Source of the DNA: Nostoc sp. CENA543
Lineage (GTDB): Bacteria > Cyanobacteriota > Cyanobacteriia > Cyanobacteriales > Nostocaceae
Length of the DNA: 64,000 bases
NCBI RefSeq assembly: GCF_002896875.1
Contig: NZ_CP023278.1
Location: 4,348,501-4,412,500 of the forward strand
Direction: 5' to 3'
Shown: positions 24,408-44,821 of the stretch, piece by piece
Numbering within the stretch: the first letter of the stretch is position 1
Layout: each line of letters starts with the position of its first letter
Translations under genes and position numbers: made by a program
Notes under the pieces: generated by a model
The model's input: the letters and a program-made list of their open reading frames with translations, nothing else
Database searches by the model: none
Told to the model about the DNA's origin: nothing

Positions 24408-25052
24408 TTACTGTTCTAACAGTTTCAGTAGTAATCTCATGTCATCAAAGACAACAGATGCACCAACTGCTTTTAGTTGTTCCGGTTTGGTCACTTCTGC
24501 ATAACCAAACACTGTCATACCTGCATCAACTCCTGCTTTTACACCTACAGGTGTATCTTCAATAACTACACATTCATGGGGATAAAACCCCATTTTTTCT
24601 GCCGCGTATAAAAATACATCTGGATATGGTTTGCTACGTGCTACAGCAGTAGCACTAAATATTTTTCCAGAGAAATAAGGTAGTAAATCTGTGGCAATTA
24701 AGGCTTGATTTATCCAATTATGGTTACTATTGGAAGCAACACAATAAGGAAGATTTAATTTGCTTAGAACATCATGTATCCCTTGCACTGGTTGCAAATC
24801 TGTTGAAAACGCTTGCATTGTGCGCTGCTCAAACTCACTAGCAAAGTTCTCTGGTGGAGATTTACCAAGCATATTTTTCACTATTTCTAAGCATATAAAC
24901 ATAGATGCGCCGAGAAAGATATCAAACACCTCTTCCCAAGTCAGAAATAGTCCTAATTCGTTGAGCATTTCCAACAAAATAGTATTGGCAATTCTTTCAC
25001 TATCTATTAGAACACCATCACAATCGAAAATAACTAACTTTATTTTGTCCAT
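24408..25052 (-). CDS. HAD-superfamily phosphatase/phosphoglucomutase-like hydrolase
   Basis: The 214-residue protein begins MDKIKLVIFDCDGVLIDSE, giving nucleophile Asp10 and acid/base Asp12. A helical cap (residues 16-85), the Thr/Ser-type ASNSN motif near 111, and the VIEDTPVGVKAG motif near 167 follow. It is a subfamily I HAD hydrolase that would remove phosphate from a small metabolite or isomerise a sugar phosphate. The ATG at 25052 is preferred over a TTG at 25064. A clear paralogue lies at 39172-39810, also beside genes of an organosulfur cassette. Substrate is unknown. Confidence 0.85.
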   Translation of the reverse strand: MDKIKLVIFDCDGVLIDSERIANTILLEMLNELGLFLTWEEVFDIFLGASMFICLEIVKNMLGKSPPENFASEFEQRTMQAFSTDLQPVQGIHDVLSKLNLPYCVASNSNHNWINQALIATDLLPYFSGKIFSATAVARSKPYPDVFLYAAEKMGFYPHECVVIEDTPVGVKAGVDAGMTVFGYAEVTKPEQLKAVGASVVFDDMRLLLKLLEQ

Positions 25053-25105
25053 GAATTTACACAAAATTTATAGCTTAAAGATTGCATAGGTGTAACCAGC
25101 CTGGC

Positions 25106-26075: not shown

Positions 26076-26106
26076 ACTACTATAAACCGATAAACTTATC
26101 GTAGTT
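26076..26106. promoter_or_regulatory. Putative operator upstream of the DUF1932 dehydrogenase operon
   Basis: ACCGATAAA lies at 26086-26094, within a near-inverted arrangement ACTAC...GTAGT (26076-26105). The word and its spacing to TATCGTAG resemble the ssuD and sulfatase upstream sites. Confidence 0.5.
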
Positions 26107-26165: not shown

Positions 26166-27989
26166 TTAAACCGTCACCCTTCTACCATCAAACTTGGTGA
26201 AGGTGAAACCGTTAAAGCGTTCGTTATATCCCAATCGTTCATCTCGCAGGATACTGATAGCAACTTCTTCACCCAACGCCAAGCCAGCTGCACCATCAGA
26301 ACGCCAATGAATACCACCATGACCACGCCCAATGTAATAGTTTGTCGCTAACTTATTCAACTCACCCCCAACTGTCAAAGGTGCGCCGTTATAGGGAATC
26401 AATTTAGTGGGGTCATTGGGATCAGGTTCTACAGGATTGGGAATAATAAAATTCTCATCAAAAAAGGCTTTTAACAAAGTAGCTTGCACACCTGCAATAG
26501 AAGCAGCCCCACCAGTGTAAGAAGAATGAAATGGTGCGCCTTCTGGATACGCATGGGGTAATAAATAAGTGCCGAAGGTGCTGAAGGTGCGAGCTAAGGC
26601 TGTGGAATTGAAGACTTGGGAATTAATCGGATAGTTAGTTCCATTCACAATATTATTGTGGACTAATCCGCCATAGGCTTCTGGTCTTAAACGCCGATGC
26701 ACATAAAATTTTTGCCAATAGGATGCTCTGATGGCTCGTGAAGGAGCTAAGTTGAGTAAGGCTTGAAAATGTCCTGGCGCAAAGGTAGCAGCAGAACCAA
26801 CTTGAGTCTTGGAGTTGATGTAGGGGTTGCCTGGATTTAAAGGTGCGCCAATGCCACTGAGAATTAATAAGGCTCCAAAGAACAAAGCCCCACCAATATG
26901 TGATAATTCGCTGAGATCACGAACAGTGAAGATAAAACGGCGTGTGGGATCGTACTTAATGGCTTTGCCGGAGCTACCTCCATTCTGAACAGTTAGCCAT
27001 TCGTTGTAATTGGTAAGGAAATCATTTTCTCTACCAGCTAGAGCTGTGCGAATCAAAGGCGAAATAACTTGGGTATTGTAGGGAATTTCCCGCAACAGAA
27101 ATTGAGAGATATGTGGGCCATCTAGCACTCCTGGAGGAGTAAAGTATTTTGTTGTTCTCCCTGAGCGATCGCGCTCATCAGTATAGATGACACTACCACG
27201 AAATAGGGTTTGAGGTGTCACAAAACCATTCTGTTTTGGTCCTCGGAATCCTGGCAGACTATTGAGTTCTGCGATCGCTGCTGCAACATTTGGATCTTGA
27301 GCGAACTGATGAAAGGGTACATCCCGCAGTAAAGCCTGCCAATAGAGTTCAATAGCTTCCGCAGCTTGTTCTGCACTATCTAAAGTTGGTGGTGGTGGAA
27401 CTGCTATCTGAGACGCATTGATTCCTTCTAAACTAATTGCCAAAGGGCCTTGAGGGTTAACTAGCTTCCTTGTACCACCCAAAATAATTCTTTCGTAATC
27501 ATCTGGGTTCTGGGTTGTTAAAGCCTTAATCAAAGAATTGTAAGCTCTTTGATCAACTTCGCCTTTTTGATCATGTGGTAATCCCCTCGTATCTGTAGCA
27601 ATTTTGTTAGGATAGCGTTCTTCATCACCGTTTGTCGGATGTGGTGGAATATCAATTTGCCGATTATTTTGCGCTGCTTGGAGACGCACTTGAAAGGCTT
27701 GCTGGCGAAACCGAATATAGCTAGAATTGCGATTTCTACCCTGAGCAATTTCTCTAGCTTGTACAACATCTCCCTTCGAGGAAGAGAAAGACGAACCGAC
27801 TATCCCAGTCACAAAACTAGTAGCAGTAAACAAACTAGCGTGATTTAGAAATGAACGTCTACTCACACCATTACGCCAAAAACGTCTGCTGCGTTTTTTT
27901 TCACCACTACGAGATTGAAAATTTGTTGCTTCATTCTGGGTTTGTGTATCTTCTTGAGAAGGTTGAGAGGAATTATGTTCAGATTGCAT
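26166..27989 (-). CDS. Tat-exported vanadium-haloperoxidase-like protein with altered SGH motif
   Basis: The 607-residue protein has a long polar N-terminus, then SRRSFLNHASLF, a twin-arginine signal near residues 43-55. The C-terminal half belongs to the vanadium bromoperoxidase/PAP2-like fold. Vanadate ligands seen are Lys427 and Arg435 in KFYVHRRLRPEA, Arg555 and His561 in GRGHGGIHWRSDG, with the expected spacings. The middle Ser-Gly-His motif, which supplies two ligands and the catalytic His, is replaced by Gly493-Gly494-Ala495 (YTGGAAS). The protein may therefore be inactive as a haloperoxidase or have another activity, such as phosphatase-like binding. It stands alone on its strand, in a sulfur context. 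Confidence 0.85.
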   Translation of the reverse strand: MQSEHNSSQPSQEDTQTQNEATNFQSRSGEKKRSRRFWRNGVSRRSFLNHASLFTATSFVTGIVGSSFSSSKGDVVQAREIAQGRNRNSSYIRFRQQAFQVRLQAAQNNRQIDIPPHPTNGDEERYPNKIATDTRGLPHDQKGEVDQRAYNSLIKALTTQNPDDYERIILGGTRKLVNPQGPLAISLEGINASQIAVPPPPTLDSAEQAAEAIELYWQALLRDVPFHQFAQDPNVAAAIAELNSLPGFRGPKQNGFVTPQTLFRGSVIYTDERDRSGRTTKYFTPPGVLDGPHISQFLLREIPYNTQVISPLIRTALAGRENDFLTNYNEWLTVQNGGSSGKAIKYDPTRRFIFTVRDLSELSHIGGALFFGALLILSGIGAPLNPGNPYINSKTQVGSAATFAPGHFQALLNLAPSRAIRASYWQKFYVHRRLRPEAYGGLVHNNIVNGTNYPINSQVFNSTALARTFSTFGTYLLPHAYPEGAPFHSSYTGGAASIAGVQATLLKAFFDENFIIPNPVEPDPNDPTKLIPYNGAPLTVGGELNKLATNYYIGRGHGGIHWRSDGAAGLALGEEVAISILRDERLGYNERFNGFTFTKFDGRRVTV

Positions 27990-34654: not shown

Positions 34655-34822
34655 GTCTACCGATAAACCGTAAAAATAATTGTTCCTATATTTAGTAATG
34701 TCCTTAACACAAAGTTAAAGAATAAATTTGGACAATCTAAGTGCTTGACTTTGCTTTACTGGCCATGTGATACTCCTAGCTGTAATATTAACCCGGTATC
34801 TCAATCAAATTACCGTAGATAT
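34655..34822. promoter_or_regulatory. Divergent operator region, PEP-CTERM gene and sulfatase
   Basis: ACCGATAAACCGTA occurs at 34659-34672, and CCCGGTATC plus AATTACCGTAG occur at 34793-34818. These are two clusters of the recurrent sulfur-type words in one divergent intergenic region. Confidence 0.5.
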
Positions 34823-37803: not shown

Positions 37804-37870
37804 CTAGCTAACCTAAATCTTAGTAATGTTGGGTTTCCTTGCGTCAATTCAAACTACGCAAATATTATTA

Positions 37871-39139
37871 ATGAAATTACTACAGAAATTCAGGTTAAAT
37901 TTGAATTTTGATCTACCTGCTTTTAGATCACGTAATTATCGCCTCTACTTTGCTGGACAAGCTTTCTCAATGACTGGGAATTTCATGACGCAAGTAGCGG
38001 TGCTTTGGTTGATTTATCGATTAACTGATTCAGCTTTACTTTTGGGGTTAGCTGGATTTTTTGGGCAATTACCAGTGTTTGCATTAGCTCCAATTTCAGG
38101 AATTTTAGCCGATCGCTACAACCGTCATCACCTGTTGCTCATGCTTCAGATCGTGGGTATTTCTTTATCAATAATTCTGACAGTCATCACATTTATGGGT
38201 GGTGCAAATTTTTGGACATTGCTGAGTTTTAGTGCCTTATTAGGTGTACTCAAAGGGTTAGATGTTCCTGTACGTCAGGCATTTGTCAGTGATATGGTGA
38301 GTCGGGAACTGATGGCAAATGCGATCGCTCTCAATGCCGCTTTTCTTCATACTGCACGCCTCATTGGCCCTGCTTTGGGTGGTATTTTGATTGCTCAGTT
38401 GGGCGCAGGTTATTGCTTTTTGTACGATAGTCTGAGCTATCTTTTGGCTATTTGGGCGATCTCAGCAATGCAAATTACATCTAGAACCATAGAAATACAT
38501 AACAGCAATACATGGCATAAATTACAGGAAGGGTTTCAATATGCTTACCGTTTCTTGCCTGTGCGTTCTATCCTCTCATTATTAGCATTAACCAGCTTAG
38601 TTGGTATGTCATATACAACACTGCTACCCATCTTTGCAGTAGAAGTTCTAAGCGGCGACTCGGAAACCTTGGGTTTTCTCTCAGCCGCAGCAGCGATGGG
38701 TTCAGTGTTGGCGTGTGTCTATCTGAGTTTTCGCCAAAACGTGGCAGGTTTAGAACGTTTAATTGCTTTTTCTCCAGTTTTTATGGGAATTGGCTTCATT
38801 CTTTTCTCGGTATCCCAAGTTTTCTGGATTTCCCAATTAGCTTTAGTTCTAGTTGGTTGGAGTTCCACGCTTCAGGTAGCTGCTAGTAATACAGTGTTGC
38901 AATTCATTGTGGAAGACAGCAAACGGGGAAGGGTGATGAGTTTTTATGCTATGTGTTTTATGGGTATGGCTCCTTTCGGTAATTTATTAGCAGGAACCTC
39001 AGCTCATTACTTGAAAGCTCCGAATACATTGATTTTGGGCGGTATCGTTTGTATTGTGGGTTCGGTGCTATTTCTACAACAGCTACCCCAGATTGTGAAG
39101 TTAATGCACTTGGGGAAAAATCAAGTGGTGACTAATTAG
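37871..39139 (+). CDS. MFS transporter of the EntS-like exporter group
   Basis: The 422-residue protein has twelve probable transmembrane segments. It starts with FRSRNYRLYFAGQAFSMTGNFM, a hallmark of the MFS_3/EntS-like group, and has GILADRYNRHHLL in the loop between helices 2 and 3, the MFS signature position. The ATG at 37871 is preferred over an upstream ATG at 37826, because the family starts there. These proteins usually export small molecules such as siderophores, and macrolides. It faces the minus-strand HAD gene with 32 bases between stops. The substrate is not evident, and a link with the sulfur genes is not shown. Confidence 0.85.
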   Translation: MKLLQKFRLNLNFDLPAFRSRNYRLYFAGQAFSMTGNFMTQVAVLWLIYRLTDSALLLGLAGFFGQLPVFALAPISGILADRYNRHHLLLMLQIVGISLSIILTVITFMGGANFWTLLSFSALLGVLKGLDVPVRQAFVSDMVSRELMANAIALNAAFLHTARLIGPALGGILIAQLGAGYCFLYDSLSYLLAIWAISAMQITSRTIEIHNSNTWHKLQEGFQYAYRFLPVRSILSLLALTSLVGMSYTTLLPIFAVEVLSGDSETLGFLSAAAAMGSVLACVYLSFRQNVAGLERLIAFSPVFMGIGFILFSVSQVFWISQLALVLVGWSSTLQVAASNTVLQFIVEDSKRGRVMSFYAMCFMGMAPFGNLLAGTSAHYLKAPNTLILGGIVCIVGSVLFLQQLPQIVKLMHLGKNQVVTN

Positions 39140-39171
39140 GTTAGTGATGTCTGTAGGGAAACATTTATTAT

Positions 39172-39810
39172 TTAAATTAGGTTAGGTAATTGATACATGG
39201 AATAAAAAACATCTGCTCCACATTCTTTGAGTTGATGAGCTTCATTTTTGGTAGTGTAACCTAAAACTTTCATCCCAGCAGCAATCCCCGCGCGTACACC
39301 TAAAATACTATCTTCCACAACAGTACAAAATTGAGCTTGAACTCCCATATTTTTAGCTGCATATAAAAATAAGTCGGGTGCAGGTTTCCAACTACCAATT
39401 TCATAGGAACTAAAAATACATCCTGCAAATCTTGGTAATAAATTAGTGACACGCAATGCCAACTGAATTTTTTCAATTGGCCCACTGGATGCAACGCAAA
39501 TTGGTAAATTAATTTGGTCTAAAGCTGTTTCTATTCCTTGTACTGGAAGTAGTTCGCTCTCAAATGCCTGAGCAGTAAAGGTACGAAGTTGAGTGACAAA
39601 ATCTGGCGGCATTTTTCTCCCCAATCTTCGCTCAATCACAGTAACACAATCAGCCATTTTGCCGCCTTTAAATAACCGAATAGCTTCTTCCAGTGACAGT
39701 TTTAAGCCAAACTCGGCGACAAATTCCACAAGCACACGATTACCTAATGTCTCACTGTCTACTAATACTCCATCACAATCGAAAATAACCAGTTTTGTTT
39801 GTGCTTGCAT
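39172..39810 (-). CDS. HAD-superfamily phosphatase, paralogue of 24408 gene
   Basis: The 212-residue protein has LVIFDCDGVLVDSE with Asp11 and Asp13, a helical cap, ASSGPIEK near 110 and VVEDSILGVRAG near 165. It follows the protein at 24408-25052 closely along its length, so it is a paralogue with a probable small phosphate-ester substrate. It lies 20 bases after the racemase-like gene on the same strand, and the two form one operon divergent from the GST-CmcJ-TauD operon. The presence of both paralogues beside organosulfur genes suggests a common type of substrate. Confidence 0.85.
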   Translation of the reverse strand: MQAQTKLVIFDCDGVLVDSETLGNRVLVEFVAEFGLKLSLEEAIRLFKGGKMADCVTVIERRLGRKMPPDFVTQLRTFTAQAFESELLPVQGIETALDQINLPICVASSGPIEKIQLALRVTNLLPRFAGCIFSSYEIGSWKPAPDLFLYAAKNMGVQAQFCTVVEDSILGVRAGIAAGMKVLGYTTKNEAHQLKECGADVFYSMYQLPNLI

Positions 39811-39830
39811 GATTTTATTGGTTGTATTTG

Positions 39831-40580
39831 CTATCTATGAAATAGTATGCCTCTGGGTTTGAGCGCAGATTCAATTGCGGCGCATCTTGCTAAACTCCAG
39901 ATGGTGGCTTGGTTGGCTGTAACTACGGGAATATTTAAATCAGCTTCTAATTCTTCGATGATTTCAAATGTTCTCCAGGCTGTACAAGGCAAAACAATTG
40001 CATCTGCATTTTGGTGAGTGATTTCCTTAATAAAAGCTGCGGCTTGATGCGGTGACTGATGCCAAAGATAACTGTCTTGAGCTAATTCTTTCGGACGTTC
40101 ATCACCTTTAAAGCCAACTATTTCAAAAGGTAATTCACTCAAAAATGTTTTGAGAGTCTGGTTGTTCCATTCGGGATAAGGGGTAACTATAGAAATTTTC
40201 TTTACCTGGAGATGTATTAATGCGTCTACTAAGGCTAGAGATGGCACAACAACGGGTACTCCTAAATTCTGCGTCAACATTTGCGCCAATTGTTCAGCAA
40301 AAACTCGTCCTCGGTAAAATGTTGCTGTTGTGAAACCGTATGCGCCAATATCTACTCTAGCTCTAGCTAATTTTTTGACTTCTTTAATGGCCTCTTGATT
40401 AATATCATCCATCGATTCTTTACTCTCGTAGGCGTGTATCCTTTGAGCTATGACGCGATGAGCATGAATAGTCACTAGGCTAGAAAAAGCAGAGTGAAAG
40501 TCAGGCTCAAATGTAGTGTTACCTGCTGGGATGAGTAAGCCGATGCGAAACTGTCTGTGAGAGTCAGCTGTTAAATACAC
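39831..40580 (-). CDS. Asp/Glu racemase-superfamily protein with a single active-site Cys
   Basis: The 250-codon protein resembles maleate isomerase/arylmalonate decarboxylase: FRIGLLIPAGNTTFEPDF at residues 11-28 and a second half with LPCTAWRT, where Cys199 is the catalytic residue. The first catalytic cysteine of the family is missing; the site reads YGFTTATF (Phe83). One-cysteine members include arylmalonate decarboxylase, so a decarboxylase or a lyase is more likely than a racemase. GTG 40580 is chosen, since AAAGGGG lies just upstream; a TTG at 40607 is possible. It heads an operon with the HAD gene and is divergent from the GST-CmcJ-TauD genes. Confidence 0.75.
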   Translation of the reverse strand: MYLTADSHRQFRIGLLIPAGNTTFEPDFHSAFSSLVTIHAHRVIAQRIHAYESKESMDDINQEAIKEVKKLARARVDIGAYGFTTATFYRGRVFAEQLAQMLTQNLGVPVVVPSLALVDALIHLQVKKISIVTPYPEWNNQTLKTFLSELPFEIVGFKGDERPKELAQDSYLWHQSPHQAAAFIKEITHQNADAIVLPCTAWRTFEIIEELEADLNIPVVTANQATIWSLARCAAIESALKPRGILFHR

Positions 40581-40679
40581 ATGACACCCCTTTCTGATCT
40601 GGCACAATCTTTGGCATTCATTTAGTTAATCTAACAATTAGGTTTACATATTCTAAAAAGAATGTATAATTACTAAACA

Positions 40680-40720
40680 ACGGTAACTCGACCGATAAAG
40701 TGTAATATACCATAAACCAA
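40680..40720. promoter_or_regulatory. Putative operator, divergent region racemase-like/GST operons
   Basis: ACGGTAACTCG is directly followed by ACCGATAAA at 40691-40699. This repeats the arrangement of the ssuD site, where CGGTAA precedes ACCGATAAA. Confidence 0.5.
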
Positions 40721-40850
40721 ACATAAGCACTTGCCAGTCAAATTCACTAAAGTCGTAGTTATCAGAACAGCTTGCTTTTGTATTATTGGTCTGATTTGGG
40801 TTGTGCAAGCTTAAAACCTGCGTTCAAAATCACTACCAGGACAGGATTTT

Positions 40851-41516
40851 ATGAGCAATATCCAACTTTACTTTGCTAAAGCTTCTACTTTCTCACAACG
40901 TACCCGTGTAGTTTTACTAGAAAAAGGTATTGACTTTACCCCGATAGAGATTGATTTACAGAATAAACCAGAGGGTTACACGCAGATTTCCCGCTATGGT
41001 AAAGTTCCAGCGATTCAACATGGGGATGTTGTGATCTATGAATCTGCAATTATTAATGAGTATTTAGAGGAAGTGTTTCCCGAACCAGCATTATTACCCC
41101 ATGAGCCGGCAAAAAAAGCGATCGCTCGCATCTGGATAGACTACGCCAATACTCGCCTTGTCCCAGCTTTTAACAAATTTCTCCGTGGTAAAGATAGTCA
41201 AGAACGGGAACAGGGAAGACAAGAGTTCACAGAAGCACTTTTATATTTGGAACAAGAAGGATTAGGTAAAGGTGATTATTTCTTGGGTGATCAGTTTAGT
41301 CTCGTTGATATTAGTTTTTATCCCTGGTTTGAACGTTTACCACTCTTGGAACATTTCCGTCAATTTGCACTACCAGCAGAAACACCACGTTTGCAGACAT
41401 GGTGGAATCTGGTGCGCGATCGCCACTCAATTCAAGGAGTAGCAAATCCTGTAGACTTCTATTTACAAAGATTTGCCAAAATTTTAGGTGAACCTGTTCC
41501 CGTTGGTGCAAAGTAA
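40851..41516 (+). CDS. Glutathione S-transferase family protein
   Basis: The 221-residue protein has a thioredoxin-like domain (residues 1-80) with [11 protein letters not shown] at the helix 1 catalytic region, GKVPAI with the cis-proline near 53, and [12 protein letters not shown] with the Glu-Ser glutathione contact near 64-66. An alpha-helical C-terminal domain follows. It would conjugate glutathione, or reductively remove a group from an organic substrate. It is the first gene of an operon with CmcJ-like and TauD genes, downstream of the operator at 40680. It may detoxify an intermediate or make the true substrate of the dioxygenases. Confidence 0.88.
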
Positions 41517-41598
41517 AAGGTAAAAGGCAAAAGGTAAGAAATCTTGATAGTTTTTTGCCTTGTGAGTATTTCATACACAAGATCAATGGGGATGAACT

Positions 41599-42462
41599 AT
41601 GAGCTTAAATCAAGTTCTAGACAGACCGATTTCCCAAACACTGCCATATGTGGAGGCTGAACTGACTTACCTCGTCCCGATGGCAGAAAAGCTCGTTAAC
41701 TATACCTATGAACCGCCAGCAGGCATTCTCCGCAGCAATGGAACTTATCAGGCGCATAAGTTACCTATTTATAATGCTCGTTCCATCGCAAAAGATATCT
41801 CTTTAGATAAAGAAGGCTTTGGATTTACTCAACATCAAACTCAGGTGCATAACTTTTATGATGAAGAGGAATTACGCCGCGTTTACTATCTTGAAGCAGA
41901 GCAATTATTACAAGAGGTGACAGGTGCAGAGCAGGTAGTGATATTTGATCACACCTTGCGGAATGCTGCTCAATCCAAGGCTAATGAGAATAGCATTAAA
42001 GAACCTGTCAAACGCGTCCATAATGATTTCACAGCCAAATCTGGCTATACTCGCGCTCGTTTAGAATTAGCGACACGGGGAATAGACAATATTGATGAGC
42101 TTTTACAACGACGGTTTGCGATCATTAATGTTTGGCGTGCGATCGCTCAACCCATTCAAGAATCACCATTAGCAGTGTGTGATGCCCAAAGTATTGCACC
42201 TACAGACCTTGTAGCTGGTGATTTAGTATATCGCGGTCGCGTCGGTGAAACCTACGCCGTTACTTATAACCAAGAACACAAATGGTTTTATTTTCCGCAA
42301 ATGCACAGGGACGAAGCCTTATTTATCAAGTGTTTTGACTCTGCAACAGACGGACGCGCTAGGTTTGCTGCTCACACAGCTTTTGAAGATCCCACCAGTC
42401 CTTCAGATGCACCGCCAAGAGAAAGTATAGAGTTGCGGACATTCGTTTTCTATCCCGATTAG
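41599..42462 (+). CDS. CmcJ/NvfI-family oxidoreductase
   Basis: The 287-residue protein matches the CmcJ/NvfI family: VVIFDHTLRNA, RVHNDFTAKSG near residue 135, INVWRAIAQPIQESPLAVCDA near 175, and HTAFEDPTSPSDAPPRESIE near the end. Members act in secondary metabolism on hydroxylation or related steps and are thought to be iron-dependent oxygenases. Histidines in HNDFT and HTAFED could bind metal. GGGGATGA lies before ATG 41599. It lies between GST and TauD genes in one operon, which suggests a multi-step oxidative attack on one compound. The substrate is unknown. Confidence 0.88.
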   Translation: MSLNQVLDRPISQTLPYVEAELTYLVPMAEKLVNYTYEPPAGILRSNGTYQAHKLPIYNARSIAKDISLDKEGFGFTQHQTQVHNFYDEEELRRVYYLEAEQLLQEVTGAEQVVIFDHTLRNAAQSKANENSIKEPVKRVHNDFTAKSGYTRARLELATRGIDNIDELLQRRFAIINVWRAIAQPIQESPLAVCDAQSIAPTDLVAGDLVYRGRVGETYAVTYNQEHKWFYFPQMHRDEALFIKCFDSATDGRARFAAHTAFEDPTSPSDAPPRESIELRTFVFYPD

Positions 42463-42508
42463 TAATGTTGTTTTTTACCTGCTGTTATACAAACTTTGGA
42501 GAATAGAC

Positions 42509-43477
42509 ATGGGTTACAAACATATAGAGGTTAAACCGACTTCTGGGTTCACTGGTGCTGAAATCAGTGGCGTGAATCTTGCAAAGGATGTGCAAGATGA
42601 GGTAGTTGCCGAAATTCGCAAAGCATTATTGAAGTGGAAGGTTGTGTTCTTTCGCAATCAAAATATAGATCATGCTGCACAGATTGCCTTTACAGCTCGT
42701 TTTGGTGAAGTTACCTACGCACATCCCCACGAAGATGAGCCAATAGATGGCTTTTCGCAAATCTTACCCATTGACCGCAGCCGCTTTGAACGGCGCAATG
42801 GTATACAACGTTCTAGCTACGAAAGCCGTTGGCACACTGATGTGACTGCGGTTGTTAACCCTCCTGCGGGTTCAATTTTGCGTGCAGTTAACGTTCCTAG
42901 CTTTGGTGGTGACACACAGTGGACTAATTTGGTTGCAGCTTACGAGGGTTTATCGGAACCTCTACGAAAATTAGCTGATGGATTAAAAGCTGAACATCGG
43001 TTTAACGCACGTTTGCGGATACCTAGTAATAGCAAATATGCCCAACGTATAGCAGCTAATCCCCAAGTTTCAATTCACCCAGTGGTGCGCGTTCATCCTG
43101 AGACTGGTGAAAAAGCATTGTTTGTCAACCCTGGCTTCACTTCACACATTCTCGATGTATCACCACAAGAAAGCGAACTGCTGCTGGAGTTGTTCTTCAA
43201 ACAAATCACTAAACCTGCCTACACTACCCGCTTCCGGTGGAATAATGGTGATATTGCCTTCTGGGACAACCGCGCTACATCGCATTTAGCACCCCAAGAT
43301 TTAGATCATATAGAAGTTGAGCGCGTACTCTATCGCACTACTATTACAGGTGATATTCCAGTCGGGCCTGATGGGTTTAAATCACAAATAGTTGAAGGTG
43401 AACCATTAACTAGTGATTTACCAACAGTCCTGAAGCAAAAATCTGAAAAAGTGTTAGCAGAACCAGCACTCAATTAA
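42509..43477 (+). CDS. TauD-family Fe(II)/2-oxoglutarate dioxygenase
   Basis: The 322-residue dioxygenase belongs to the TauD/TfdA family, which uses iron, O2 and 2-oxoglutarate to hydroxylate the carbon next to sulfur and release sulfite. The iron ligands are His109 and Asp111 in WHTDVT and His259 in TSHLAPQD; the 2-oxoglutarate Arg is in ERVLYRTT near 270. The N-terminal GAEISGVNL segment matches TauD. GGAG lies upstream of ATG 42509. It is longer than E. coli TauD (283 residues) by a C-terminal extension of about 30. The stop codon overlaps the end of an inserted repeat. Taurine is a possible substrate but other sulfonates are equally likely. Confidence 0.92.
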   Translation: MGYKHIEVKPTSGFTGAEISGVNLAKDVQDEVVAEIRKALLKWKVVFFRNQNIDHAAQIAFTARFGEVTYAHPHEDEPIDGFSQILPIDRSRFERRNGIQRSSYESRWHTDVTAVVNPPAGSILRAVNVPSFGGDTQWTNLVAAYEGLSEPLRKLADGLKAEHRFNARLRIPSNSKYAQRIAANPQVSIHPVVRVHPETGEKALFVNPGFTSHILDVSPQESELLLELFFKQITKPAYTTRFRWNNGDIAFWDNRATSHLAPQDLDHIEVERVLYRTTITGDIPVGPDGFKSQIVEGEPLTSDLPTVLKQKSEKVLAEPALN

Positions 43478-43603
43478 GAGACTTCCAACTAAAACAATAT
43501 ACAATCGCTGTGGTGAGCAGGGGTGCAGGGGGCAGGGAGCAGGGGGAAAATCAAAATATTCTCTCTCGGAATTTGAATAATTTATTTTCTAGAAGTCCCT
43601 AAG
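43475..43603. repeat. MITE-like element, copy 2 (TAAGAGACTTCC ends)
   Basis: TAAGAGACTTCC at 43475 and AGAAGTCCCTAA at about 43591-43602 are inverted ends of a 129-base element with an internal GGGAGCAG/GGGGCAG tract. It corresponds to the copy at 30141-30268. Its first three bases are the stop codon of the TauD gene. Confidence 0.75.
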
Positions 43604-43610
43604 TTAGAAA

Positions 43611-43687
43611 TTATAGCGTTTCTCAATTCAAAGAAGTACATTTATAAAAAGTTTAGGTGTATTTCGATTACCAGAGAAACGCTATAA
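43611..43687. repeat. 77-base element with TTATAGCGTTTCTC inverted ends
   Basis: TTATAGCGTTTCTC (43611-43624) and GAGAAACGCTATAA (43674-43687) are perfect 14-base inverted ends. The interior is AT rich and non-coding. Confidence 0.8.
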
Positions 43688-43705
43688 ATCCGCACCCTAG
43701 CAAAT

Positions 43706-43800
43706 AGGTAAGCTAATCAGCATTTAAGTTGGATAAAGCTAGGGCTAAAGCCCTTACTACAAGCGAATCAGTCTGAAAAAATGAATGACGATTAGCTTAT
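43706..43800 (+). repeat. Dispersed repeat, copy of 28549-28641
   Basis: The segment has ends GTAAGCTAATCAGCATT and AATGACGATTAGCTTAT, which are inverted repeats, and a GGGCTAAAGCCCTTACTAC centre. It matches 28549-28641 in the opposite orientation. It ends about 35 bases before the first possible start of the EamA gene. Confidence 0.85.
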
Positions 43801-43834
43801 TAAGAAAAAAAGTGTTTTTAGCAATACAATCGGG

Positions 43835-44821
43835 TTGTCCTTTCGTAGCTTTTTGATAGTGTTGGGCATCCTTACTGTTCTTCTATCTGCCTTTGTTTTG
43901 TCATTCCATAACATTACAGTACGAGTTTTGTTTTCCGAACATCTCGTACTGGGTTTCTTTTTACTTGGTGGATATGTAAAACCGGATCTACCAAATTCTT
44001 TCTTACTAATGTTTATGCGAATGTTATTAGTAGTACCACTAATGGCATTAGTAGCATTTAAACTATATCCATCAGCACTGACAGAATTGCGAGACTTGTT
44101 CAGCCGAGAAAGGAGGGACATTTTATTTCAAGCTTTTGGCTGCGGGATACTAATGTTTGTGTATATTGCTTTACTTTACGTTGCTATTGGCTTAATTCCC
44201 ACTGGAATTGCTCTCACCTTATTTTTTACCTATCCTATATTTACGGCTCTTCTATCTTGGAAATTTTTTGGCGATCGCCCCACATGGTTATGTTGGCTGG
44301 TAATGGCTATTATTCTGATAGGTAGTGTGCTGACAGTACCTCAATCTTCTACTACCTACAGTAACCAGTCTATTAACATTGGTATCATCACAAGTGTTAG
44401 TTCTGGGATAGTTTACGCTTTTTATAACATCATTGCCCAAAAATGCTTAACTAGATTTCATCCAGTTCCCTTCACCTGGATTAGCTTTGCCTCTACTCTC
44501 ATACTTTCTGGTGTTTGTTTACTGTTTTGGCCGTCTCCCGGCACGCAACTTGATTGGACACCTTTGTGGATTGGCAGTATTTTTTCTGGTTTAGTCAGCT
44601 TTATTGGACACACAATGAATAATGCCGGAATTCGGATGATTGGCGCAACTACCGCCTCAATCATTGGTTCTAGCAGTCCAGCATTAACAGCGTTAGTTGC
44701 ATGGTTAACAATTAGCGAAGCGTTAAATGCGACGCAAAATGTGGGAATTGGGATTGTAACTTTCGGAATTGCGCTGTTGAGTGGAGAAAAGTGGATTAAA
44801 TCATTGAATATGAGGAGTTAA
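43835..44821 (+). CDS. EamA/RhaT-type drug/metabolite transporter
   Basis: The 328-residue protein has about ten hydrophobic helices in two EamA repeats: LFMRMLLVVPLMALVAF-like segments in the first half and GATTASIIGSSSPALTALVAW in the second, which is the typical second-repeat motif. Only TTG starts are available near the N-terminus (43835, 43853); no ribosome binding site is evident, and the first helix begins almost at once. A dispersed repeat ends 34 bases upstream, so the original start may have been lost. It probably exports a small metabolite or amino acid. It is convergent with the apbC gene. Confidence 0.8.
   Translation: MSFRSFLIVLGILTVLLSAFVLSFHNITVRVLFSEHLVLGFFLLGGYVKPDLPNSFLLMFMRMLLVVPLMALVAFKLYPSALTELRDLFSRERRDILFQAFGCGILMFVYIALLYVAIGLIPTGIALTLFFTYPIFTALLSWKFFGDRPTWLCWLVMAIILIGSVLTVPQSSTTYSNQSINIGIITSVSSGIVYAFYNIIAQKCLTRFHPVPFTWISFASTLILSGVCLLFWPSPGTQLDWTPLWIGSIFSGLVSFIGHTMNNAGIRMIGATTASIIGSSSPALTALVAWLTISEALNATQNVGIGIVTFGIALLSGEKWIKSLNMRS

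Follow-up and report, generated by a model that had tools for sequence, protein, structure and literature searches.

A GST-CmcJ-TauD locus in a Nostoc organosulfur island, a probable inducible module for sulfur acquisition

What does a glutathione S-transferase (GST) do beside a CmcJ-like oxygenase and a TauD-type dioxygenase in a cyanobacterium? The three genes lie in a 64,000-nucleotide stretch of Nostoc sp. CENA543 (the window; positions 4348501-4412500 of contig 1 of a 7.2-Mb Nostoc-type genome), and feature coordinates are window positions unless a genome position is named (Table). An earlier note on this DNA had described them as a multi-step path that activates, oxidises and desulfonates an aromatic or complex sulfonate, divergent from a racemase-like/HAD gene pair with which they share an operator candidate at 40680. 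Open reading frame (ORF) calls and family models confirmed that all of these genes are present and intact. The GST, CmcJ-like and TauD genes sit within a large organosulfur island, and our analysis indicates that they probably form an inducible module with which the cell obtains sulfur from an organosulfur compound.

The GST has both N- and C-terminal GST domains; among solved structures it comes closest to GSTs, SspA and omega GSTs, and its best NCBIfam match, SspA, is under the cut-off of that model. The CmcJ-like protein scored 333.6 bits against a cut-off of 80 with NF041278, spanning positions 1-263 of 263, and matched NvfI with an E value of 7e-31. Its putative iron ligands (Table) align with H135, D137 and H250 of NvfI and are invariant in 32 of 32 sequences; the NvfI paper, in the part available, gives this triad as His135-His137-Asp250, which is contradicted by the NvfI sequence. 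By family model and iron-ligand alignment the protein is assigned to the CmcJ/NvfI family, and it is predicted to carry out a 2-oxoglutarate-dependent oxidation. Arg255 was considered as a marker of the sulfur-linked CmcJ group (38/38 versus 1/8 others) and dropped, since the aligned residue is Arg in NvfI and 7EUS too. The TauD-type dioxygenase (TauD1) belongs to the TauD/TfdA family (193.5 bits versus 27, E 8.8e-57) and fails the NCBIfam taurine dioxygenase equivalog (254.6 bits versus 313). In Escherichia coli TauD, His70, Tyr73, Asn95 and Arg270 have roles in the taurine site. TauD1 keeps its iron ligands, and its H72 and R276 align with the sulfonate-binding His70 and Arg270. The residues facing Tyr73 and Asn95 in the alignment are Glu75 and Glu105, the second of them in a gapped region; Glu75 is found in 7/7 TauD1 sequences and Glu105 in three, with a gap in the other four. 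As TauD1 carries Glu at these two positions, taurine is unlikely to be its substrate. A reading as sulfoquinovose dioxygenase was also considered and set aside.

A scan of genome contigs with the CmcJ protein yielded 36 loci, of which the nearest named one is in Nostoc sp. CMAA1605. Thirty are of the core type (L009-L035, L037, L040 and L043; 78-98% identity), while the more distant L036, L038, L039, L041, L042 and L044 were kept outside the counts; for L020, in which CmcJ was absent from the ORF pick, tblastn rows were used instead. The core GST gene lies directly upstream of cmcJ in 28 of the 30 core-type loci; in L027 a distance of 1.7 kb separates it from cmcJ, also on the upstream side, and L032 begins at a contig end. 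GST-CmcJ is the core of the locus. The gene directly downstream of cmcJ (<700 bases) is TauD2 in 17 loci and TauD1 in a single one, L009; the remaining 12 have neither type there, and among these L033 stops 240 bases past cmcJ. Since the two TauD types are 43-44% identical, this slot holds different genes in different lineages. The gene for the racemase-like protein, here termed AMDase-like after arylmalonate decarboxylase (AMDase), is intact (229-255 amino acids) in 10/30 loci and interrupted or fragmentary in five (L012, L013, L016, L017 and L025); it was not seen in the other 15, the upstream DNA available for two of these, L023 and L032, being too short. An intact HAD gene lies upstream in two loci (L013 and L040). 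None of the 30 loci holds all five genes, and a five-gene unit was rejected: many loci lack the AMDase-like gene or have it disrupted, HAD is rare and TauD is exchanged. Separately, a second CmcJ type (~70% identical) occurs in L036, L038 and L039 with a divergent ArsR-family regulator and no adjoining GST; TauD1 lies downstream of it in L036 and L039, and L038 lacks TauD.

The same genes were followed across the 58 genomes common to all scans, using E limits for orthologue-like matches of <1e-100 for CmcJ, 1e-90 for core GST, 1e-110 for TauD, 1e-150 for SsuD and 1e-60 for the AMDase-like protein; the Fisher values given here ignore relatedness and are a guide only. Strong CmcJ matches were found in 11 genomes, that of G008 holding one stop, and CmcJ fragments only in G005 and G013. 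Core GST was found in 10 genomes, all CmcJ-positive (p 2e-10), and in the CmcJ-positive genome without it, G029, a 52%-identical GST adjoins CmcJ. GST and CmcJ are unlinked in five genomes (G002, G006, G008, G015 and G030), where they lie ~30 kb to ~3 Mb apart. TauD1 is present in 11/11 CmcJ-positive versus 3/47 other genomes (p 2e-9), TauD2 in 10/11 versus 1/47 (p 2e-9), SsuD in 11/11 versus 9/47 (p 7e-7) and the AMDase-like gene in 3/11 versus 0/47. Among the 58 genomes, core GST thus never occurs without CmcJ, even where the two are unlinked, and every genome with CmcJ also has ssuD and TauD1. The co-occurrence in other genomes that had been put forward as a check was found for GST, CmcJ and TauD and is nearly absent for HAD.

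These genes also share a candidate regulatory element. Upstream of the GST gene, the box TTAG-N5-CTAA-N3-TTAG (operator 1) abuts a predicted promoter that is conserved in an alignment of 30 GST upstream regions, with transcription probably starting near 40677. By eye, a conserved block that contains operator 1 extends from TTTATTTAG to the start codon; in regions lacking the AMDase-like gene its 5' edge is sharp. Operator 1 has five exact copies in the genome, three of them within the window, a count that has no exact-match control figure. Related loci totalling 635 kb contain 41 exact sites versus one in the reversed control, and none lies inside a called gene; 24 precede core GST genes, and exact sites were also found before TauD1 and flavin-monooxygenase genes. 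As these 24 share one context and several of the others overlap one another, the 41 sites are not independent. With two mismatches allowed, the window holds 16 sites versus a shuffle mean of 9.5, a number reached in 4/100 shuffles. Among 14 chosen genomes, operator 1 and its reversed control gave 43 versus 22 sites in the six with the module and 8 versus 24 in the eight without it (Fisher 2e-4). Thirty of these 51 sites were fetched, and recognised sulfur, exporter or module genes were found beside 13/23 in module genomes and 2/7 in the others. In G002, operator 1 precedes both GST and the unlinked CmcJ. Relatives of the EntS-like transporter have exact boxes upstream in L014, L017 and L040, and the Anabaena FACHB-1237 close match of the transporter at genome position 4780753 has the box too, divergent from flavin-monooxygenase genes. 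Operator 1 is shared with other organosulfur genes in its own genome and in relatives. The half-sites resemble the RbcR-type LysR operator published as ATTA(G/A)-N5-(C/T)TAAT (PMC13249358, in the part available), and for this reason the regulator is likely to be of LysR type and may be a relative of RbcR. Operator 1 also precedes an ABC-2 type transporter operon in L099 (753), L044 (16489), G002, G004, G008, G011, G021 and G024, of which G011 and G024 lack the module.

The candidate at 40680 (operator 2) stood in part. Within it, ACCGATAAAGTGTAA occupies 40691-40705, and the core ACCGATAAANNGTAA occurs exactly only twice in the genome, at 40691 and 34659. In related loci this core was found 12 times versus none in the control, each time before core GST. 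The element ACCGATAAA is also present before ssuD (3601) and at 26086, and TCGACCGATAAA, with up to two mismatches, has 10 window sites versus a shuffle mean of 3.5. Across the 30 upstream regions ACCGA(T/C)AAA is mostly kept. Conservation of the inverted repeat CGGT...ACCG was rejected, its first arm being lost in most of these regions. What remains is an element conserved before orthologous GST genes with a core rare in the genome, and operator 1 is the stronger of the two. The other exact ACCGATAAANNGTAA copy, at 34659-34673, lies before a sulfatase gene.

The GSTs fall into two kinds, sorted beforehand by the motif at position 12. Of 34 aligned, the 30 core-type sequences (28 beside CmcJ, that of L027 and that of the window) have Ser12 and the four GST2 sequences have the Cys of CPYA. 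From what is known of GST classes, this difference suggests two roles, in which the core GST would conjugate or substitute and GST2 would remove glutathione. A Cys-type (CPYA) GST is encoded upstream of the window at L060:11336-12001, adjoining a binding-protein gene, and in L010, L021 and L028 a GST of the CPYA kind (split in L028) is divergent from the core GST across operator 1.

A tblastn search of 72,556 plasmids returned 23 CmcJ records, of which 14 were examined: six (L062-L065, L102 and L103) of the 12 at at least 42% identity and eight (L066 and L104-L110) of the 11 at 36% or less. Organosulfur-type genes were present in 6/6 examined loci of the relatives with 42-50% identity (12 known). 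L062-L065 contain TauD, SsuD, an annotated sulfonate transporter, or CysB with serine acetyltransferase; L063 and L102 had no gene table, and their content was taken from tblastn with the window proteins. Among the eight at 36% or less, one lies near a sulfinopropanoyl-CoA desulfinase and a flavin oxidoreductase and another near a flavin oxidoreductase, and no recognised sulfur gene was found in the rest. The sulfur link thus holds for the nearer CmcJ relatives and should not be extended to the whole family. The sulfur-linked label is clustered on the CmcJ tree (2 changes versus a shuffled mean of 7.6). A single sulfur-linked clade was considered and dropped; as the tree leaves deep branches open, we do not claim monophyly. 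On the Variovorax plasmid L065 (6028-11572), CmcJ lies upstream of a rhodanese, a serine acetyltransferase and a family 2A encapsulin with cysteine desulfurase cargo.

The island around the locus holds further genes of organosulfur type. Its SsuD exceeds the alkanesulfonate monooxygenase equivalog (622 bits versus a cut-off of 518), and MetX exceeds one of two acetyltransferase cut-offs; family models also identified an O-acetylhomoserine sulfhydrylase-type enzyme, a sulfatase with an FGE-type sulfatase-modifying factor, and FAD-flavoproteins of the fumarate-reductase type. The ATP-binding cassette (ABC) genes labelled ssuA, ssuB and ssuC are of sulfonate/taurine/nitrate type by resemblance only, the sulfonate-type ATPase scoring under equivalog cut-offs. 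One binding protein matches NMT1/THI5, and further ones had no NCBIfam match at the limit used. Directly upstream of the window are a second GST, an arylsulfotransferase-like protein and a binding protein. An EamA gene follows the TauD slot within 3.5 kb downstream of cmcJ in 10/30 core-type loci and in the window. Within 39000-44000 no convincing RNA element was found in Rfam, the single match (E 0.21) being far under the gathering score.

Table. Positions of the genes, promoter and operator candidates discussed in the text
Feature	Position	Strand	Remarks
EntS-like major facilitator superfamily (MFS) transporter	37826-39139	+	MFS_3; one-mismatch operator 1 at 37804-37823
HAD-IA phosphatase-like protein	39172-39810	-	PF13419; rare companion; outside the range of the earlier note
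AMDase-like protein	39831-40607	-	Asp/Glu racemase superfamily; PF17645, E 9.7e-23, 81.4 bits versus 25.9; accessory
Operator 1 (candidate)	40622-40641	+	LysR-type box TTAG-N5-CTAA-N3-TTAG; one base from -35
Predicted promoter	40643-40670	+	-35 TTTACA 40643-40648; 16-base spacer; -10 TATAAT 40665-40670
Operator 2 (candidate)	40680-40705	+	CGGTAA...ACCGATAAAGTGTAA; downstream of the probable transcription start
Core GST, Ser-type	40851-41516	+	GST_N_3/GST_C_2; Ser12
CmcJ/NvfI-family Fe(II)/2-oxoglutarate oxygenase	41599-42462	+	NF041278; H141, D143, H259
TauD-type dioxygenase (TauD1)	42509-43477	+	PF02668; Fe ligands H109/D111/H259
EamA transporter	43835-44821	+	EamA, E 1.2e-23; frequent downstream neighbour, possibly part of the locus
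Operator 1, exact site	window 14783		before FAD-flavoprotein gene
Operator 1, exact site	window 29597		between dienelactone hydrolase and ferredoxin gene, then binding protein and flavoprotein
Operator 1, exact site	window 40622		before GST
Operator 1, exact site	genome 3670686		between TauD2 and MFS gene, second sulfonate-type island
Operator 1, exact site	genome 4780753		before ABC transporter

How well does a sulfur-acquiring module account for these data? Several observations weigh against it. The Nostoc loci are related, so their counts are not independent; 12/30 core-type loci have no TauD directly downstream, and in L036 and L039 ArsR-CmcJ is followed by TauD1 with no GST beside CmcJ. 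Outside cyanobacteria, a GST was not seen in the five Burkholderiales plasmid loci examined, the GST beside CmcJ in Geminicoccaceae does not match core GST, L102 and L103 offer weaker contexts (sulfonate-type ABC genes, and in L102 also an island-type flavoprotein), and the CmcJ relatives at 36% identity or less are mostly in other catabolic loci. Neither operator is enriched genome-wide once a mismatch is allowed (operator 1, 47 versus 97 in the reversed control; ACCGATAAANNGTAA, 13 versus 25), and for 10 of the 23 operator-1 sites examined in module genomes, none of the neighbours was recognised as a sulfur, exporter or module gene.

The alternative that survives best is natural-product tailoring, in which the CmcJ/NvfI oxygenase and the GST would modify a small molecule that EamA, MFS or ABC-2 pumps then secrete. 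The family member of solved structure that matches best, NvfI, belongs to fungal natural-product synthesis, transporters adjoin the locus and carry operator 1, and methyltransferase and GNAT-like genes lie near some loci. However, no assembly-line or scaffold gene was noticed among the ORFs of window positions 1-48000, ssu- and tau-type genes are constantly nearby, and CmcJ co-occurs with ssuD and tauD, all of which weakens this reading to one that we regard as improbable. Somewhat less probable again is a redox or detoxification role during sulfur shortage, with the GST and oxygenases protecting against electrophiles or reactive sulfur and releasing no sulfur. Detoxification is a typical GST function, SspA is the NCBIfam model that this GST matches best, albeit under its cut-off, and exporters share operator 1; yet two Fe/2-oxoglutarate oxygenases lie in one presumed transcript, the TauD-family one keeping the sulfonate-site His and Arg, and the link to TauD and SsuD holds across genomes. 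That the genes are accidental neighbours in a patchwork sulfonate island, as the 0/30 five-gene count and the coming and going of the AMDase-like and HAD genes might imply, is very unlikely given that GST and CmcJ are adjacent in 28/30 loci, co-occur when unlinked and have operator 1 in common in G002.

For a sulfur-acquiring module, the reactions, their order, the substrate, the regulation and the regulators are those that we infer as follows. A LysR-type regulator would act at operator 1 beside the -35 box, and a second factor close to the transcription start, at the CGGTAA/ACCGATAAA element; gst-cmcJ-tauD would be driven by the promoter there, and the region may also serve the divergent amdase-had pair. 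The Ser-type GST may add glutathione to an organosulfur substrate or displace a group from it, and the CmcJ-type oxygenase may then hydroxylate or desaturate the substrate or the GST product next to sulfur. TauD would hydroxylate the sulfonate-bearing carbon, so that sulfite leaves and is assimilated. Where present, the AMDase-like enzyme may decarboxylate or isomerise the carbon skeleton. An organosulfur role is well supported by context, co-occurrence and the shared operators. Of the sulfonate path first proposed, the organosulfur context and the linkage of GST, CmcJ and TauD by neighbourhood and co-occurrence hold, but conservation of the five genes together does not; an aromatic or complex sulfonate, the step order, and activation by GST followed by TauD desulfonation are not supported as stated. 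More tentatively, these genes could represent a distinct CmcJ/NvfI set dedicated to organosulfur assimilation. Together with a Ser-type GST, such oxygenases would carry out an oxidative desulfonation assisted by glutathione and separate from TauD/SsuD; a LysR-type operator would govern the route, and plant-associated Nostoc would use it to take up host sulfonates.

In the divergent pair, the AMDase-like gene is accessory and HAD a rare companion. The earlier assignment of a racemase-like protein with only the second-site Cys, and Phe at the first site, was borne out by alignment with AMDase: Phe83 and Cys199, numbered from a GTG start at 40580, are F92 and C208 of the longer ORF and align with what we take to be Gly74 and Cys188 of AMDase. 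F92, T93, Y144 and C208 are invariant in 11/11 aligned sequences, including that of the window, and Thr-Thr and Tyr occupy the positions that we presume to form the AMDase dioxyanion hole. The protein scored 83.4 bits against the AMDase equivalog cut-off of 225, and the EutA model scored slightly above AMDase (91 bits versus a cut-off of 318); as both equivalog cut-offs were failed, the label stops at AMDase-like. The HAD protein scored 179 bits with PRK10563, under the cut-off of 211. A second HAD_2 phosphatase-like gene in the organosulfur island (24408-25064) adjoins genes for an NAD-binding DUF1932 protein and a short-chain dehydrogenase/reductase.

Further observations concern the wider islands. 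A second sulfonate-type island in the same genome (L097:4463-16183; G000:C1:3669463-3681183) holds TauD2, MFS and ABC genes and operator 1. Positions 26166-27989 of the window encode a 607-amino-acid protein with relatives in 12/36 CmcJ loci; neither NCBIfam nor Pfam gave a match for it at the limits applied, and it is labelled vanadium-haloperoxidase-like only tentatively. In L014 (17102-18487), a NifE-like protein (TIGR01283, 568 bits, above the cut-off of 505) is encoded in an organosulfur-type island behind overlapping operator-1 boxes, with shorter forms in L017 and L040. Since a nitrogenase-like enzyme is required for isethionate assimilation in Rhodobacter (PMC11423573, in the part available), a sulfur role for this protein is conceivable.

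Among the open-access papers that our searches found, no title or abstract opening tied CmcJ/NvfI proteins to sulfur assimilation or described this gene set. A family known from natural-product chemistry gains a second likely role, sulfur scavenging, in cyanobacteria and proteobacteria, and the operator provides a handle on which genes of Nostoc organosulfur islands may switch on together. The accessible parts of the literature indicate that organic sulfur passes between mosses and nitrogen-fixing Nostoc, with few enzymes assigned beyond alkanesulfonate monooxygenase.

Sulfonate assimilation in E. coli is carried out by tauABCD and ssuEADCB under CysB/Cbl. The Nostoc island is similar in uniting a TauD-family dioxygenase, SsuD and sulfonate-type ABC genes with a LysR-type box, but differs in having a GST and a CmcJ/NvfI oxygenase as its core, in its cyanobacterial host, and in a TauD1 whose taurine site deviates at two positions from that of E. 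coli TauD. The AMDase-like protein resembles AMDase (PDB 2VLB/3DG9) in its lone second-site Cys, with none at the first, and in its Thr-Thr and Tyr dioxyanion positions, and differs from it by Phe for Gly at the first site. Operator 1 matches no description known to us. The TTAG-N5-CTAA core is like that of the RbcR-type operator (PMC13249358, in the part available), whereas here a third half-site, TTAG, follows after three bases and the genes are for organosulfur use and export. In the parts available of two accounts of Nostoc-moss exchange, Nostoc punctiforme that lacks a putative alkanesulfonate monooxygenase is unable to colonise feathermoss (PMC7784912), and Nostoc depletes moss taurine, sulfoacetate and choline-O-sulfate (PMC7784912, PMC8941135); Nostoc organosulfur genes including alkanesulfonate monooxygenase are common to those accounts and to this island, while GST-CmcJ-TauD and the operator go unnamed in those parts. 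Finally, like CmcJ, NvfI and EfuI (NvfI, PDB 7DE2/7EMZ/7ENB; also 7EUS), the CmcJ-like protein passes the family model widely and has aligned, invariant iron ligands, but unlike NvfI, which serves fungal natural-product synthesis, these relatives reside in organosulfur-type loci of Nostocales and Burkholderiales.

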